From Halorussus rarus (GTDB taxonomy: Archaea; Halobacteriota; Halobacteria; Halobacteriales; Haladaptataceae), in assembly GCF_003369835.1 (NCBI RefSeq), contig NZ_QPMJ01000002.1:682001-746000 (forward strand): a stretch of 64,000 nt of DNA. Direction: 5' to 3'. The number at the start of each line of letters is the position of its first letter. Within the stretch, counting starts at the first letter, position 1. Under the pieces are notes generated by a model. The model was given only the letters and a program-made list of their open reading frames with translations. It did not search any database and was not told the DNA's origin. A program made the position numbers and the translations under genes. Positions 11,868 through 64,000 of this stretch are shown here, piece by piece.

Positions 11868-13082
11868 ATGCCCTCCACACGCCTCGTCTATCGAGTGGTA
11901 TCCCTCAGCGTCCTCGTTTGCGTCTGTTCGAGCACCGCTATTGCCTCGTTCGGAGTTGTCCACGGAACGACCAACAACGCCGCGACGGGATGTTTCCCCG
12001 GCGTGGACTCGATAGAGCGTGGGGAAGCCGTCGGTGACGTAGTCGAAATGAAGATGCTACTCTGTTTCACCGGATCAGTCACCATCGAAGGTCCGGGGTA
12101 TAGCGGCAAAGCGACGCTCGGGGATGGAAACAATTCCGGACACGTCACCCTACACCTGGACACCGGCGTCAACGGTTCAGCCGTCTTCGACGTCACCTCC
12201 GACCGACTTGACTCGGTACCGATGAACGCGACCGGCGACGGGTCGTTCGAGCCCGGAAACTACACCGTCACGATCCGCGACGGGAGCGGAGACGTTGCCG
12301 ATACGATCACCTTCGAGCTCGACGAACCGCAGTCCCGAACGAACGTGACAGGTGACGGCCCGACCGTGTATCGGGCGGCGAACGCCAGCTTCGAGAGCGT
12401 CGCGTCTATCGAAGACGCGATTTCCACGGGTAGGGCCGAGCCTGCCGACGCCGTCGCTGTCGGGGATACCCTCATCGTTGCCATCGAATCCGAACAACTC
12501 GCCGACGCGATGAATACCACGAACGGTTCGACCACAGAGCAGTTCTTCACCGCGTTGAATGGCAAAGCGGAGTTCCGCATCATCCAGACAAACCCCACCC
12601 CAGAGGCAAACAGAAAGTTCGCGGCGATGGGTCAGGAGAACGTGACAGCTCACCGCGTCGGGACGACCGTGTACGCTGTCGTCGAGACGGAGAACCTTAC
12701 GGTCAAATACCGCCGCGTCCTTCGAGAGACGCAGTTCGACAGCGGGGATCGATTCGCCGTTCAGTTCGGATACGACCTCCCCGACACCTGGTCACGGGCG
12801 ACCGTTCCGTCGAGTCCGATCATCGAATTCCAACCACGGTCTCAGCTGACGACCACACAGTCCCAGACGACAACACGGCCAGAAACACCGATTCCGTCAA
12901 CACACCCGGAATCGGAGACTTCCACGCTCAGGGGTTCGACGACATCTGAGCAAGTGACGTCGAAGGGAACCAGTGACGATCAGGCCGAGACTTCCGGTGT
13001 TCCGGGATTCACCGCACCGACGACGCTCCTCGCACTGCTCGGATTTGTAGTTCTGTGGATTCAGCGGTCATATAATCGATAG
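11868..13082 (+). CDS. secreted surface protein with PGF-CTERM anchor
   Basis: I start at ATG 11868 because a signal peptide begins there (LVYRVVSLSVLVCVC, then SSTAIA). An upstream in-frame ATG would include the MPDAV remnant. The mature part is beta-rich with several N-x-S/T sequons (NNS, NGS, NYT, NVT, NTT, NGST, NLT). A Thr/Ser-rich linker (about 325-370) precedes GVPGF, a hydrophobic segment and a basic end, which is the PGF-CTERM signal processed by archaeosortase ArtA, with lipid attachment. It has 404 residues. It looks like a small relative of S-layer-type BGTF-domain surface proteins; its binding partner is unknown. Confidence 0.8.
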   Translation: MPSTRLVYRVVSLSVLVCVCSSTAIASFGVVHGTTNNAATGCFPGVDSIERGEAVGDVVEMKMLLCFTGSVTIEGPGYSGKATLGDGNNSGHVTLHLDTGVNGSAVFDVTSDRLDSVPMNATGDGSFEPGNYTVTIRDGSGDVADTITFELDEPQSRTNVTGDGPTVYRAANASFESVASIEDAISTGRAEPADAVAVGDTLIVAIESEQLADAMNTTNGSTTEQFFTALNGKAEFRIIQTNPTPEANRKFAAMGQENVTAHRVGTTVYAVVETENLTVKYRRVLRETQFDSGDRFAVQFGYDLPDTWSRATVPSSPIIEFQPRSQLTTTQSQTTTRPETPIPSTHPESETSTLRGSTTSEQVTSKGTSDDQAETSGVPGFTAPTTLLALLGFVVLWIQRSYNR

Positions 13083-13392
13083 ACTCGTCTTGGTCACGTC
13101 TGTACTGGAATAGTGTCGGGAAGCCACTTGACTGCTTGCTGCCAAGCCAGATGGTGATTCCTTCGGACCAAAAGTTCCTTTCAGTTGCCTTCTCTGCGTC
13201 GTAATGCCGAACATTCATACTAGTGGTCTGATATGGTCTAACTGCGCGTAGTACGGGGATTTCGATACCGGGCGGGGAGGAGACCGACCCCGCCGCGCAG
13301 ATCACGTCCAGACCTTGGACGCACCCATCTTACTTTCACTTCCGGTCCGGGTATGGCTCACCTCTTAGTCACACTCCCGTGCATAGCCAGAT
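13083..13392. other. intergenic stretch
   Basis: No gene is supported. The 16-base string TACTTTCACTTCCGGT at 13331-13346 repeats the one at 7410-7425. A minus-strand frame across 13009-13305 overlaps the end of the secreted protein gene and has no recognisable features. The promoter of the 66-residue gene is expected in the last 50 bases. Confidence 0.35.
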
Positions 13393-13593
13393 ATGTCGCA
13401 GCAAACGCAGAAACCGCAGAGTGAGAGGACCGACTACGGCGCGACCATGGTCGAGCTCGCCAAGCGCCCCGACGGCACGTGGGAGGCGACCCAGCCCGGC
13501 CTCGACGTCGTCGGGACCGGGCCGTCCGCCGCGCGAGCGACAGAGGACATGGCCGCCACAATCGCCGACCAGTTCGACACTACGGATGCCTAG
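13393..13593 (+). CDS. small HicB-like protein
   Basis: This 66-residue protein has the core YGATMVELAKRPDGTWEATQ, then GVGPSAARATEDMA-type residues (here VVGTGPSAARATEDMAATIA). The strand-turn-strand followed by a helix is the pattern of the HicB partial RNase-H fold found in antitoxins, though no DNA-binding tail is present. Its end overlaps the start of a frameshifted gene (13587-13854), giving a two-gene module like a toxin-antitoxin pair. A broken relative of its second half lies at 6255-6330 on the other strand. The HicB assignment is by pattern only. Confidence 0.5.
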   Translation: MSQQTQKPQSERTDYGATMVELAKRPDGTWEATQPGLDVVGTGPSAARATEDMAATIADQFDTTDA

Positions 13594-58583: not shown

Positions 58584-60020
58584 TTACCCGTCCAGCGAGA
58601 CCACGACGTTCTTCGTCTGCGTGTACTCCCGGATCGCCTGCGTGCCCTTCTCGCGGCCGATGCCCGACTCCTTGTAGCCGCCGAACGGCGCCTGGGGCGG
58701 CGTGACCGGGAACTCGTTGACCGAGACGCTGCCGGCCTCGAGCCGCCCGGCGACCCGGTGAGCGCGCGCGAGGTCCCGTGTCCAGACCGTCGCGTACAGC
58801 CCGTACCGCGTGTCGTTGGCGCGCCTGACGGCCTCGTCCTCGTCCGAGAACTCGTAGAGGGTGAACACCGGGCCGAACACCTCGTCGCAGGACAGCGGCG
58901 CGTCGTCGGGGACGCCCTCGACGACGGTCGGCGCGTAGAAGTTGCCCGCCTCGCGGGGGATCTCGCCGCCCGCCAGCACCCGTCCGGGGCCGTCCTCGAC
59001 CGCCTCGGTCACGTACGCCGCGACGCGGTCCCGGGCCTCCCTCGTTATGAGCGGGCCGACGTCGGGGTCCTCGGTCCCCGGCCCGGTCGTCAGTTCCTCG
59101 GTCGCGGCCGCGACGCGGTCGGCGAACTCGTCGTAGACGTCCTCGTGGACGAACACCCGCGTCGTTGCGAAGCAGACCTGGCCCGCCATCGCGAACACGC
59201 CCAGCGTGTCCTCGACCGCCGAATCGAGGTCGGCGTCCGGGAAGACGAGGCTCGGGCTCTTGCCGCCGGTCTCCAGGCCGACCGGCGTCAGGTGGTCCGC
59301 GGCGGACTTCATGACGGCCCTGGCGGTCTCGACCGACCCGGTGAACACGACCTTGTCCACGCGGTCCGAGCCGGTCAGCGCCGCGCCGGTCGTCGCGCCG
59401 TCGCCGGGGACGACGTTCCAGACGCCGTCGGGGAGGCCGGCCTCGCTGGCGATGCGTGCGATCTCGGTGGCGACCAGCGGCGCCTCCGGCGCGGGCTTGG
59501 CGACGACGGCGTTGCCGCAGGCCAGTGCCGGCGCGATGCCCCGGAGCGAGAGCAGCGCGGGCGCGTTCCACGGGATTATCTGGCCGGTGATGCCCAGCGG
59601 CTCGAGCCGGGTGTAGTCGAGGTACCCCTCGCCGACCGGGACCGACTTGCCCTCGATCTTGTCGGTCAGCCCGGCGTAGTAGTCGAGGTACTTCGCCCCG
59701 TTCCGGGCGAACAGCCGGGACTCGCGCAGCGGTCGGCCGGTCTCGGCGGTCCCCAGTTCGGCGAGGTCGTCGGCGCGCTCGCGGACGGCGTCGGCGACCT
59801 CCCGCAGCAGGCGACCGCGGTCGCTCGGGTCCATCGCCCGCCACTCGGGAAGCGCGCCCTCCGCCGCCGAGAGCGCGGCGTCGATGCCCTCGCGCCCGCC
59901 TTCGGCCGCAGTGGCGACGGGGTCGTTGGTCGACGGGTCCAGCACCGCGAACGCGTCCTCGCCCGGTCGCTCCTCCCCATCGATGTAGCACCCGTACTCG
60001 CCGTGCGTGTGCCCAGACAT
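58584..60020 (-). CDS. aldehyde dehydrogenase (NAD(P)+)
   Basis: 478 residues, full family length. GITGQIIPWNAPALL, KPAPEAPL and VFTGSVETA build the cofactor site, LETGGKSPSLVF has the general-base Glu, and MAGQVCFATTRVFV the catalytic Cys. PFGGYKESGIGREKG ends the fold. It oxidises an aldehyde to the acid; the specific substrate is not clear. It follows the regulator/binding-protein cluster in the same direction, so it might be a target of that regulator. Confidence 0.92.
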   Translation of the reverse strand: MSGHTHGEYGCYIDGEERPGEDAFAVLDPSTNDPVATAAEGGREGIDAALSAAEGALPEWRAMDPSDRGRLLREVADAVRERADDLAELGTAETGRPLRESRLFARNGAKYLDYYAGLTDKIEGKSVPVGEGYLDYTRLEPLGITGQIIPWNAPALLSLRGIAPALACGNAVVAKPAPEAPLVATEIARIASEAGLPDGVWNVVPGDGATTGAALTGSDRVDKVVFTGSVETARAVMKSAADHLTPVGLETGGKSPSLVFPDADLDSAVEDTLGVFAMAGQVCFATTRVFVHEDVYDEFADRVAAATEELTTGPGTEDPDVGPLITREARDRVAAYVTEAVEDGPGRVLAGGEIPREAGNFYAPTVVEGVPDDAPLSCDEVFGPVFTLYEFSDEDEAVRRANDTRYGLYATVWTRDLARAHRVAGRLEAGSVSVNEFPVTPPQAPFGGYKESGIGREKGTQAIREYTQTKNVVVSLDG

Positions 60021-60100: not shown

Positions 60101-61396
60101 CTACTCGTCCGCGTCGAGGTCCGCCACGGAGAGCGCGGTCTCGAGCCGGTCCCACGTCTCGCGGTCCTGCCAGCCCCAGCCGTGCTCGCAGACCGCATCG
60201 TTGGCGCCGAACTCGCCGACCGCGCGCTCGAAGGTCCGGCGCTCGTCGTCGTCGAAGATGATCCCGCTGCCGGTCGACACCTCGTACGGGCGGCTGACGG
60301 CGGCGGCCCACCCCGCCGCGGTCGCCGCGAGGAACTCCGCGAGCGGCCCCCGTCGCCGACGGAGCGCCCCCTCGGTCGCGACCAGCGACGGGCCGCAGAT
60401 GGGGAACTGGTCGGCGACCCGGAGCGAGTCGGTCCGGACGCCGTCCTCCCGGAGCTCCCGCGGGTCCGAGAACGACCCCGTGACCGCGTCGGCCTCGCCG
60501 TCCAGGAGCGCCCGCCGCTCCTCGCCCGCGATGTCCACGAGCTCCACGTCCGCGAGGACGCCCGACTGGGCGAGGAACAGCCGGCCCAGCAGCCCCGCCT
60601 CCGACTCGACGGGCATCCCGACGCGGCGGCCCCGCAGCTGCTCGACGCTCTCCAGGCCGCCGTCGAACCGGTCGCGCTCGGCGTACAGCACCGTCATCGC
60701 CCGCTGGAACAGCAGCGCCAGCGGGACGACCGGCTCGCCCCGCCGCCGGGCCTCGACGAGCGACACCGCCCCGGCCACGCCCACGTCGGCCTCCCCCGAG
60801 GCCACCGCGGCGAGCGACGCCGACGAGCCCCGGTGCTCGGCGAAGTCGACCGACAGGCCGCGGTCGGCGTACTCGTCCCGGCCAGCGGCCGCGAACAGCG
60901 GCAGGTGGAGGCCGTTGGGCGTCCAGTTCAGGCCGACCGTGAACTCCCGGTCGGCGTCGTCGTCGCGGTCGGCGTCGTCGGAATCACTGAATTGAGCACT
61001 TTCGGCGGACTCGTCGCCGACGTCGAACGCGGTCCGCGCCCGGTCGAGCAGCCGGTCGGCGTGGCGGTCGTACACCCGACCGGGGGCGGACGCCGGACCG
61101 TACGCCACCTCCCAGGCCTGTGGCGGGCGGCCCCGGGTCTCGTCCTGCACGGTCGTCGCGGTCACGAGTCCGCGGTCTTCGAGCGACGAGAGCGCGTCGG
61201 TGACCGCGTTCCGACCCAGGCCGGTGCCGACCTGCACGGTGAGCAGCGTCGCGGGCTCGTCGCCGACGCCGTCGCGCTCGGCCCGGAGCAGGAGGTAGGC
61301 CAGCACGCGGGCCGGCCGGTCGCCGAGCCCCGCACCGAGGCGTTCGACGAACGGCTCGTCGTCGTCGGAGAGGGCCGGGAACGTGCGAACCTCCAT
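60101..61396 (-). CDS. regulator: winged helix fused to an NMT1/THI5-type binding domain
   Basis: 431 residues without signal peptide. Residues about 20-95 form a winged helix (ARVLAYLLLRAERDG, VTDALSSLEDRGLVTA, AWEVAYG). An acidic linker follows, then a periplasmic-binding-protein-like domain from about 150 (FTVGLNWTPNGLHLPLFAAA, SLAAVASGEADVGVAG, MPVESEAGLLGRLFLAQSGV). LNW.PN is the N-terminal signature of NMT1/THI5 and ThiY proteins. A DNA-binding domain on a ligand-binding domain makes it a likely sensor repressor or activator. It follows two binding-protein genes (60101 is its stop) with 91 bases between. Ligand unknown; pyrimidine- or sulfonate-like compounds are typical. Confidence 0.75.
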   Translation of the reverse strand: MEVRTFPALSDDDEPFVERLGAGLGDRPARVLAYLLLRAERDGVGDEPATLLTVQVGTGLGRNAVTDALSSLEDRGLVTATTVQDETRGRPPQAWEVAYGPASAPGRVYDRHADRLLDRARTAFDVGDESAESAQFSDSDDADRDDDADREFTVGLNWTPNGLHLPLFAAAGRDEYADRGLSVDFAEHRGSSASLAAVASGEADVGVAGAVSLVEARRRGEPVVPLALLFQRAMTVLYAERDRFDGGLESVEQLRGRRVGMPVESEAGLLGRLFLAQSGVLADVELVDIAGEERRALLDGEADAVTGSFSDPRELREDGVRTDSLRVADQFPICGPSLVATEGALRRRRGPLAEFLAATAAGWAAAVSRPYEVSTGSGIIFDDDERRTFERAVGEFGANDAVCEHGWGWQDRETWDRLETALSVADLDADE

Positions 61397-61487
61397 GGCT
61401 CGCTAGGTGCACTACCGCGACGAGCAAAAGTACTCCGGCGGTCCCGAGCTCCCCAGGACCCCACGGCCGACCCGGTCGGCGGACGCG

Positions 61488-62456
61488 TCACCGACTCGCC
61501 TGCCCCGCGTACGCCCCGATAGCGTCGGCGTCCGCGTCGAGGTACTCGTTCGTCCACGCCGCGTCGGGGTCCACTTCGCCGTCGAGCAGGTCGGTCTCCG
61601 CGAGGGTCTCGCCCAAGGTCCGCCACCGGTCGGCGTCGTGGTGGCCCCAGCCGGTCTCCCGGAGACGGTCGGTCCACTGGAGTTCGTCGGCGGCGACGCC
61701 GAACTTCCGGCGCTCGACGTCGCGGGTCCGTTCGAGGGTGGCGTTGCGCTCGACCAGCACGTCGACGGCCTCGTCGGGGTCCTCGGTCGCGGCGACCCAG
61801 CCCCGGGCGGTCGCCCGGAGGAACGACCTGACGGTCTCGGGATTCTCCGCGGCGAACTCGGGGTTCGTCACGATGGTCATCCCGTAGACGTCGAGGTAGT
61901 CGCCGATGCGCAGCTCGTCGGCGGTCCGGTCGTGCTCCGCCTGGAGCTCGTAACCGTTGGTGACGACCCCGACCGCGGCGTCGACCTCGCCGCTGACCAG
62001 CTTGTGCTGGACCCGGTGGTGGGTGTGCTCGTCGACGTCCAGCAGGTCGACATCGTCACTGATACCTTCGTTTTCGAGGAGCTGTGCCGTGAGGATGCGG
62101 GTCTTGGTCGCCGAGGGGGCGATGGTGCAGCCGGCGAGCTGGTCGGGCGATTCGAGCGCCGCGCCGAACGCGTCCCGGAAGGTGTACACCGCGGCGGGCG
62201 TCTTCTGAGTGACCGCGGCGACCGCGAGGGGTTCGACGCCCTGGCTCCGGACCGACAGCACCGCGCTCCCGCCGGCCAGGGCGAACTCGCGTCGACCCTC
62301 CCCGGCCTGCTCGGCGGCGAACGGCGAGCCGTGGCCCTCCACGAACCGGACGTCGAGCCCCTCCTCGTCGTAGAAGCCCCGCTCGCGCGCGAGGAAGTAC
62401 GGCGCCTGGAACCCGTTGGGTTCCCAGTTGAGCTGGAAGTCGACCTCGGTCGTCAT
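61488..62456 (-). CDS. NMT1/THI5-type substrate-binding protein without signal peptide
   Basis: 322 residues. VDFQLNWEPNGFQAPYFLAR begins right after the Met, so there is no signal peptide or lipobox. GEGRREFALAGGSAVLSVRS, SATKTRILTAQLLENEGI and GEVDAAVGVVTNGYEL follow the binding-protein fold. The Cys cluster of yeast THI5 (an HMP-P synthase) is absent. Without export it would act in the cytoplasm, or export uses an unusual route. It overlaps the preceding gene by 4 bases. Confidence 0.8.
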   Translation of the reverse strand: MTTEVDFQLNWEPNGFQAPYFLARERGFYDEEGLDVRFVEGHGSPFAAEQAGEGRREFALAGGSAVLSVRSQGVEPLAVAAVTQKTPAAVYTFRDAFGAALESPDQLAGCTIAPSATKTRILTAQLLENEGISDDVDLLDVDEHTHHRVQHKLVSGEVDAAVGVVTNGYELQAEHDRTADELRIGDYLDVYGMTIVTNPEFAAENPETVRSFLRATARGWVAATEDPDEAVDVLVERNATLERTRDVERRKFGVAADELQWTDRLRETGWGHHDADRWRTLGETLAETDLLDGEVDPDAAWTNEYLDADADAIGAYAGQASR

Positions 62457-63445
62457 CGGCCGGCCTCCGGGACGAACGCGCCGTCGGGGATGCGCTCGAC
62501 GCCGAGCGCGTCGGCGCCCGCGACGTCGCGGAGGTGGTCGAACAGCTGCTCCATCCCGGCGACGGTCTCGCGGTCCCAGTCGGCGACGACCATCTCGCGC
62601 CAGCCGTCCCGGATGGCCCGCCAGGCCCGCTCGTCGTCGGTGTCCATCAGCCGGTCGCCGATCTCGGCCCAGAGCTCGTCGTCCTCGCGGAGCCTGGCGA
62701 CCGCGTCGCGGTAGGCGTCCCGGAACGCGCCGACCGTCTCGGGGTGGTCGTCGAGGTACGCCTCGCTCGTGAGGAACGTCGAGACCGGGAGCCGGTCGTC
62801 GGTGCCCGAGAGCCGCTGGACCAGGTCGGCCATCGGCAGCACTTCCCGGCAGTCGCCCGCCTCGGTCAGCTCGGGCACGATCTGCCAGAACTGGAGTCCG
62901 GCGTCGACCTCGCCCTCCCGGAGCAGCCGGGAGAGCTCGACCTTCGAGCCGGCCTCGACCGCGGTGGCGGTGTCGGCGGGGTCGAAGTCGTGGTACTTGC
63001 GACAGGCCGCCCGGGTGAGAATCCAGTTCTTGTCGAGCCGCCGGACGACGCCGACGTCCACGTCGCGGAGGTCGTCGAGCCCCGCGACGTCCGAGTCGGG
63101 CGCGGCGACGAGCGACCCCACGGTCCGGCCGTAAGGGTGGAAGCCGACGATGGGCGCGCCCTCGGCGCGCTCCCGGGCGGTCGAAATGTAGTCGATGTCG
63201 ATGAGGTCGGCGTCGCCCTCCTGGAGCTTGGCCTCGACGGTCTCCAGTCCGTCCTCGGTCTCGTCGGAGACCAGTTCCACGTCGAGGTGGAAGCCGTGGT
63301 CGCGGTCGAGGCCGAGGCGCTTGATGGTGTACAGGAGGTAGCGCGGGCTCCCGTTGTGCTCGAACCGGGCGCGCATCACCGGCCGGTCGCCGGGGTCGCC
63401 GTGCTGCTCGTCGAGCGCGGCCTGCTTCTCGGCGATGGAGGTCAT
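62453..63445 (-). CDS. second binding-protein-like protein without signal peptide
   Basis: 330 residues. SPRYLLYTIKRLGLDRDHGF, KLQEGDADLIDIDYISTARE, VGVVRRLDKNWILTRAACRK and LREGEVDAGLQFWQIVPEL follow the ABC-type binding-protein (SsuA/NMT1) layout. The first 25 residues are charged and cannot be a signal. It overlaps the next gene by 4 bases, so the two are made together. Ligand unknown. Confidence 0.75.
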   Translation of the reverse strand: MTSIAEKQAALDEQHGDPGDRPVMRARFEHNGSPRYLLYTIKRLGLDRDHGFHLDVELVSDETEDGLETVEAKLQEGDADLIDIDYISTARERAEGAPIVGFHPYGRTVGSLVAAPDSDVAGLDDLRDVDVGVVRRLDKNWILTRAACRKYHDFDPADTATAVEAGSKVELSRLLREGEVDAGLQFWQIVPELTEAGDCREVLPMADLVQRLSGTDDRLPVSTFLTSEAYLDDHPETVGAFRDAYRDAVARLREDDELWAEIGDRLMDTDDERAWRAIRDGWREMVVADWDRETVAGMEQLFDHLRDVAGADALGVERIPDGAFVPEAGR

Positions 63446-63512
63446 CGCTGGCCCCCTCGCACCGCGGCGGCGTGCGGTGGGACGACGGTGTCCGGTGGGG
63501 CGACCTCGCGGG

Positions 63513-64000
63513 TCACGGCCGGCCTCCCGGCGCCACGATGGACCGGATCTCGGCGTCGGCGTCGACCAGGTCGCGCTCCTTCATCCAGTCGAGGTGCTCG
63601 CGGAGCTCGTCGTAGTCGGCGAGCTCGGGCGCCTCGTACTCGGGCACGGTGATCTGGTCGCGGACCGCGTCCACGTCGACGTCCTCGAACAGGTCGGGCG
63701 CGACCGCCTCGTCCTTGCCCAGCATGTCGAGGTAGTCGTCCCGGAACTCGGCGGGGTTCTCGTTGATGTCCTCGACGGCGCGGCGATAGCCGGCCACGAA
63801 CTTCCGGAGCGCCTCCCCCGTCAGCTGCTCGCCGCCCACGATTCCCATGTGGTTCTCGAACTCCATGACGCGCTCGAAGCCCAGCTCCTCGGCCAGCGTG
63901 CTGTGGGGTTCGAGCAGCGTCGCGGCCTCGACCTCGCCGTCGCGGAGCGCCCGCAGGCGGTCGGTGGGCATCCCCTGGTGGTCGAGGGTCACGTCCTCGG
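63513..64000 (-). CDS. third binding-protein-like protein (partial, N-terminus outside window)
   Basis: Only the C-terminal part lies in the window, and the frame is open to base 64000. MPTDRLRALRDGEVEAATLL, ELGFERVMEFENHMGIVGG and LRKFVAGYRRAVEDINENP are typical of the second lobe and hinge of SsuA/NMT1-type proteins. Whether it has a signal peptide cannot be seen. It is followed 67 bases later by the 330-residue gene in the same direction. Confidence 0.7.
   Translation of the reverse strand, partial: EDVTLDHQGMPTDRLRALRDGEVEAATLLEPHSTLAEELGFERVMEFENHMGIVGGEQLTGEALRKFVAGYRRAVEDINENPAEFRDDYLDMLGKDEAVAPDLFEDVDVDAVRDQITVPEYEAPELADYDELREHLDWMKERDLVDADAEIRSIVAPGGRP

Follow-up and report, generated by a model that had tools for sequence, protein, structure and literature searches.

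PqqT is the periplasmic PQQ-binding protein of Methylobacterium. It is exported, and its bacterial homologues are encoded in operons that combine a substrate-binding protein (SBP) with a permease and an ATPase. The same fold is used by enzymes such as Thi5, MqnD, DszB and 4,5-dihydroxyphthalate decarboxylase, of which Thi5 (HMP-P synthase) is cytoplasmic, and by ThiY, which binds an HMP precursor. TrmB-type regulators follow a plan in which a helix-turn-helix (HTH) is joined to a ligand domain. The known PQQ enzymes work outside the cytoplasm. PqqT with bound PQQ and Gd3+ is represented by PDB entry 9B1V, and changing K142 of PqqT is reviewed as altering the metal selectivity of the bound PQQ (PMC12828617). 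In the open-access literature on haloarchaeal PQQ, quinoprotein and lanthanide use, we found nothing on the gene cluster described here.

The cluster lies on the minus strand of the window, by which we mean the whole 64,000-nucleotide stretch analysed (G000:C2:682001-746000, G000 being the window's genome). Sequences matching the window at high identity come from Halobacteria alone, in keeping with its haloarchaeal origin. From upstream to downstream it comprises genes that we call A, B, C and D, followed by an aldehyde dehydrogenase gene (ALDH). On balance, we consider it probable that A–B–C, together with D and ALDH, form a module that supplies PQQ within the cytoplasm to quinoproteins folding there. 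In this module A, B and C, with a divergently transcribed cupin and a VOC protein, would constitute a conserved haloarchaeal unit supplying a PQQ-type quinone cofactor.

Gene layout and export signals

Only the 3′ part of A is within the window (63513..64000). The initial annotation had pointed to a third binding protein leaving the window, and read past the edge A is indeed complete at 300 aa (G000:C2:745513-746415, equivalent to L004:6514-7416). B (62453..63445, 330 aa) and C (61488..62456, 322 aa) share a 4-bp overlap between the end of B and the start of C. They are followed by D (60101..61396, 431 aa) and by ALDH (58584..60020), an NAD(P)-type enzyme of 478 aa (PF00171, E = 1.4e-159) that is the final gene of the run. 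Pfam NMT1 (PF09084) matches A, B and C with E-values of 2.5e-10, 8.9e-8 and 2.2e-35, respectively, and residues 164–372 of D with 2.4e-31. A and C are of the NMT1/THI5 fold, and the AlphaFold model of A (pLDDT 92.5) has the binding-protein fold. Just past the window, an inverted repeat, ACTTAAAGG...CCCTAAGT, lies across the divergent A/cupin promoter (G000:C2 ~746416-746490); it is also present in L029, the nearest relative of the window's genome, and other loci have facing TATA-like boxes in this intergenic region.

For each of the three proteins A, B and C, we compared the start site with those of ~47 distinct haloarchaeal homologues. Neither at these starts nor immediately before them is there a hydrophobic Tat or lipobox leader, and a search for alternative upstream starts encoding such signals likewise returned none for any of the three genes, which bears out the earlier observation that B and C lack an export signal. 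Pattern-based signal flags upstream of B and C were rejected as Arg-rich shadow frames overlapping the preceding gene. Both B and C had also been described as starting directly at the first strand. This is the case for C, and for A, but B has an N-terminal extension of ~22 residues (helix at 4–12) ahead of that strand. Judged from their sequences, A, B and C are predicted to be cytoplasmic proteins.

Reading the genes beyond position 64,000 completed A and revealed no homologue of an importer permease or ATPase in the 20 kb around the cluster, as had been the impression from the window itself. Elsewhere in the same genome, at G000:C1 919950-923667, a full set of ABC importer genes is present, including one for a Tat-exported NMT1-type SBP that is paralogous to C (42% identity over 316 aa); a quinoprotein gene is on the same contig, and both lie within 912–930 kb. 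The initial proposal of a sensing or buffering set rather than a transporter therefore stands in part. The proteins appear to be cytoplasmic, do not belong to an extracellular transporter at this site and have the look of ligand-handling or sensing components, but this genome does encode a full importer, exported C homologue included, which is syntenic with the set in relatives.

A twin-Arg leader is present in 16 of 16 exported proteins paralogous to C, several of which have a lipobox as well. The 42% identity between C and the exported protein could be taken to mean that A, B and C are decayed transporter genes, i.e., remnants of exported SBPs whose signals have been lost. We give this explanation next to no credence and rejected it on conservation: the signal-less starts, the gene order, identities of ~60–86% and many invariant residues are kept in ~47 homologues across families.

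B as a relative of PqqT

A phmmer search aligned residues 39–325 of B with PqqT (PDB entries 9b1u, 9b1v and 9ooz) at E = 1.4e-18, and at E < 0.001 no solved structures other than PqqT entries are related to B. The AlphaFold model of B (pLDDT 88.9) superposes on PqqT containing PQQ and Gd3+ with a TM-score of 0.90 (by target) and 26% identity over the whole fold; PqqT entries take ranks 1–3 among solved structures, with the next family at 0.71. Asp138–Lys139–Asn140–Trp141–Ile142 (DKNWI), Arg145 and Trp187 are common to B and PqqT and are invariant or nearly so among the ~47 homologues of B. The lysine of DKNW corresponds to residue 115 of the PqqT chain and may be K142, an equivalence that holds only if a leader of 27 residues is assumed; the Y161W entry is apparently chain-numbered. 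Homologues of B with ~30% identity also occur on bacterial plasmids (Sagittula, Qingshengfaniella, Azospirillum), and the annotated ones that were read, three of three, lie in quinoprotein loci with a permease and an ATPase.

B thus resembles PqqT in sequence, fold, motif and quinoprotein gene context. Unlike PqqT, it is predicted to be cytoplasmic, bears the N-terminal extension and is encoded beside two more signal-less proteins of the SBP fold, the cupin and the VOC protein. Because the defining feature of export is absent, we do not file B as a PqqT; sequence and model instead indicate a cytoplasmic variant of the PqqT kind that would work like PqqT in part. Homology to PqqT together with the quinoprotein linkage described below makes a PQQ-type cofactor the likely ligand, and B is accordingly annotated as a putative cytoplasmic PQQ binder. 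In two Haloplanus loci (L052 and L054), B is present in two tandem copies.

The initial annotation had assigned the binding proteins to an NMT1/SsuA type. The NMT1 half of this label is upheld by the Pfam matches of A–D, whereas membership in the SsuA-type sulfonate SBPs was rejected, the sulfonate-family profile TIGR01728 giving 20.7, 23.8, 59.6 and 32.7 bits for A, B, C and D, far under its cut-off of 163.5. The weak match to this profile nevertheless belongs to what can be said for a set that senses or buffers a small substrate, carbon or sulfonate-type, in the cytoplasm and regulates ALDH, in which case the linkage to quinoproteins would reflect a shared alcohol metabolism and not the cofactor. 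D fuses the binding fold to a DNA-binding domain, and the substrate or product could enter through the exported SBP and its importer. We find this reading unlikely. Apart from the profile scores, the B model fits SsuA with a TM-score of only about 0.68–0.78 against 0.90 for PqqT, three cytoplasmic binders have no obvious use in such a scheme, and the type of aldehyde enzyme is exchangeable among loci.

C, D and the exported paralogue

His42, Lys118, His146, His147 and His151 are invariant in C and absent from its exported paralogue, and C is therefore not merely a leaderless copy of the exported SBP. In our model C would be a cytoplasmic paralogue that has diverged from the exported SBP linked to the importer. 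C also differs from the exported protein at many candidate pocket positions, and neither A nor C is close to PqqT; A, B and C thus need not share one ligand.

By sequence, the closest solved relatives of C are ThiY, as the N-formyl-aminopyrimidine binding protein, and Thi5, which are its top PDB matches. This raised the question of thiamine-pyrimidine (HMP) metabolism, with C and its exported paralogue being ThiY- or Thi5-like. In the alignment, however, C lacks the CCCFC stretch and does not conserve the positions that the Thi5 literature gives as the catalytic Lys and His, so that C was rejected as a Thi5-type HMP-P synthase. No thiamine gene was noticed across 50 neighbourhoods, in which the genes are linked instead with quinoproteins and aldehyde oxidation. 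A role in HMP metabolism is accordingly very improbable.

D had been described as a winged helix joined to the binding fold. The binding fold is well supported by the NMT1 match, and the winged helix weakly so: the N-terminal HTH matches TrmB with E = 0.0025 and 18 bits, under the gathering score of 25.6. D resembles TrmB-type regulators in its domain plan and in this weak match; it differs from them in that its ligand domain is of the NMT1/SBP type and its HTH is below the family cut-off. Leu16, His17 and Asp167 (C numbering) are common to D and the exported protein and are not found in C, which fits D as a sensor of the imported ligand. D is thus a putative ligand-responsive regulator, predicted to bind DNA and to have a ligand domain resembling the exported protein. 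Its homologues adjoin the importer ATPase or are located within ~10 kb of quinoproteins, and D-sized matches lie ~4–7 kb from a quinoprotein gene in G047, G050, G055, G154 and G184.

The importer, D, A–B–C and a quinoprotein are at a single locus in L038, L040, L055, L057 and L061, and the whole set is found at one locus in three genera, Halalkalicoccus, Natronolimnohabitans and Natribaculum. This synteny ties the set to the importer, although the two are not adjacent in the window's genome. A distant, leaderless relative of A occurs in a complete ABC operon with ATPase and permease in another haloarchaeal family (L119:9095-10060 and L121:9220-10221); the L121 operon also encodes a binding protein with a Tat leader.

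Conserved partners and quinoproteins

The neighbourhoods of 50 non-duplicate loci were surveyed. A–B–C occur together in fixed order at 48 of them, the divergent cupin at 49 and the VOC protein at 47. Within 11 kb, a quinoprotein alcohol dehydrogenase is present at 18/50, D at 15/50, and the exported SBP with permeases at 7/50. Over the same distance, 23 of the 50 loci encode an aldehyde-oxidising enzyme, in some cases several (AOR, aldehyde:ferredoxin oxidoreductase, 17; ALDH, 6; XDH, xanthine-dehydrogenase, family, 1). The aldehyde enzyme is an ALDH in Haloterrigena, as in the window, and is replaced by an XDH-family enzyme in Halococcus and by AOR in other genomes. From this exchange it seems that the enzyme serves to oxidise aldehydes after the alcohol dehydrogenase step, where ALDH, or AOR or XDH elsewhere, would act on the aldehyde product of the quinoprotein. 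This metabolic role suits ALDH better than the earlier idea that it is the target of the binding proteins.

B is present in 19 of the 195 genomes of the order. Quinoproteins of the alcohol dehydrogenase type were found in 31 genomes at E 1e-60, plus G071, with a limited number of candidates scored per genome. They occur in 17 of the 19 genomes with B and in 15 of the 176 others (Fisher 7e-14, a value that ignores shared ancestry). The two genomes with B and no such quinoprotein are G081 (completeness 71%) and G051, where A–B–C is present and a GSDH-family protein occurs instead. We count the G051 exception against the PQQ-supply model, as we do the ~10 genomes that have A–B–C and a quinoprotein and no close importer SBP.

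The haloarchaeal quinoproteins match PF01011 and align to quinohaemoprotein alcohol dehydrogenase. Their vicinal Cys pair is retained, as are the PQQ-site residues Glu, Trp, Asn, Asp and Lys, whose roles we take as established. All but one of the quinoproteins examined contain WDYD, and DYD is a motif of lanthanide-dependent enzymes (PMC7300363). The model, if true, would suggest that haloarchaea oxidise alcohols in the lanthanide-dependent manner. One quinoprotein paralogue of the window's genome (G000:C1:14499-16172, L103) lacks WDYD, unlike the others.

None of the quinoproteins examined has a signal peptide. Of 29 partner proteins encoded immediately upstream of a quinoprotein gene, 10 have a twin-Arg leader, and all three partners from the window's genome are among these; the other partners, including those at most loci linked to A–B–C, have no leader, and export by Tat hitch-hiking was therefore rejected as a general rule. 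At L051:17172-18884, L057, L055, L061, L070 and similar loci, DYD quinoproteins and their upstream partners are both signal-less, and the sequences suggest that quinoproteins of this class are cytoplasmic. In the window's genome, the quinoprotein would fold and load its cofactor in the cytoplasm and then hitch-hike out with its Tat-leader partner; in the other class, in which neither subunit has a leader, it would stay inside the cell. Since the quinoprotein is signal-less whether or not its partner has a leader, we infer that folding and cofactor uptake take place in the cytoplasm, which would give a reason for cytoplasmic cofactor-binding proteins.

No PqqE was found above cut-off in the 195 genomes, the model matching radical-SAM proteins generically below it, and no PqqC in 21 genomes, in a search run without a positive control. 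Haloarchaea with signal-less DYD quinoproteins thus pose the question of how PQQ is acquired and loaded, for which the cluster offers concrete candidate genes. The lack of a PqqE above cut-off also bears on a different explanation, in which A, B and C with the cupin and VOC protein are enzymes that make or modify PQQ or a PQQ-like quinone independently of pqqA–E, the importer serving salvage. Genomes with a quinoprotein divide into ~10 with A–B–C and no close importer SBP, ~14 with the importer and no A–B–C, and ~8 with both modules, a split typical of synthesis versus salvage, although the ~8 show that the modules are not exclusive. The same split might mean that A–B–C handles PQQ entering the cell by a different path. 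The cupin and VOC protein are near-constant partners, but the module showed neither a gene for a peptide precursor nor a radical-SAM gene. The SBP-fold enzymes named at the outset are precedents, and enzymes of this kind are among the structural matches of A and B, yet B is closest to a binder and not to an enzyme. C has invariant His residues that set it apart from its exported paralogue, and those positions of C that align to the Thi5 catalytic site are unconserved. We would be somewhat surprised if the genes formed such an undescribed archaeal route, with SBP-fold enzymes making or remodelling a PQQ-type quinone in the cytoplasm for quinoproteins that load it inside the cell, one class of them remaining there; this joint claim is doubtful as a whole. 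Handling and supply of the cofactor is the reading that we favor over biosynthesis and hold to be reasonably likely. Either would mean that binding-protein folds have been recruited to the cytoplasm, as cofactor carriers if the supply model is true, or as enzymes.

At some Halalkalicoccus and Halococcus loci, genes for sodium/calcium exchangers directly follow A–B–C (L030:11260-12276 and 12278-13471; L096:16998-18032), which may be relevant to the metal supply of the quinoproteins.
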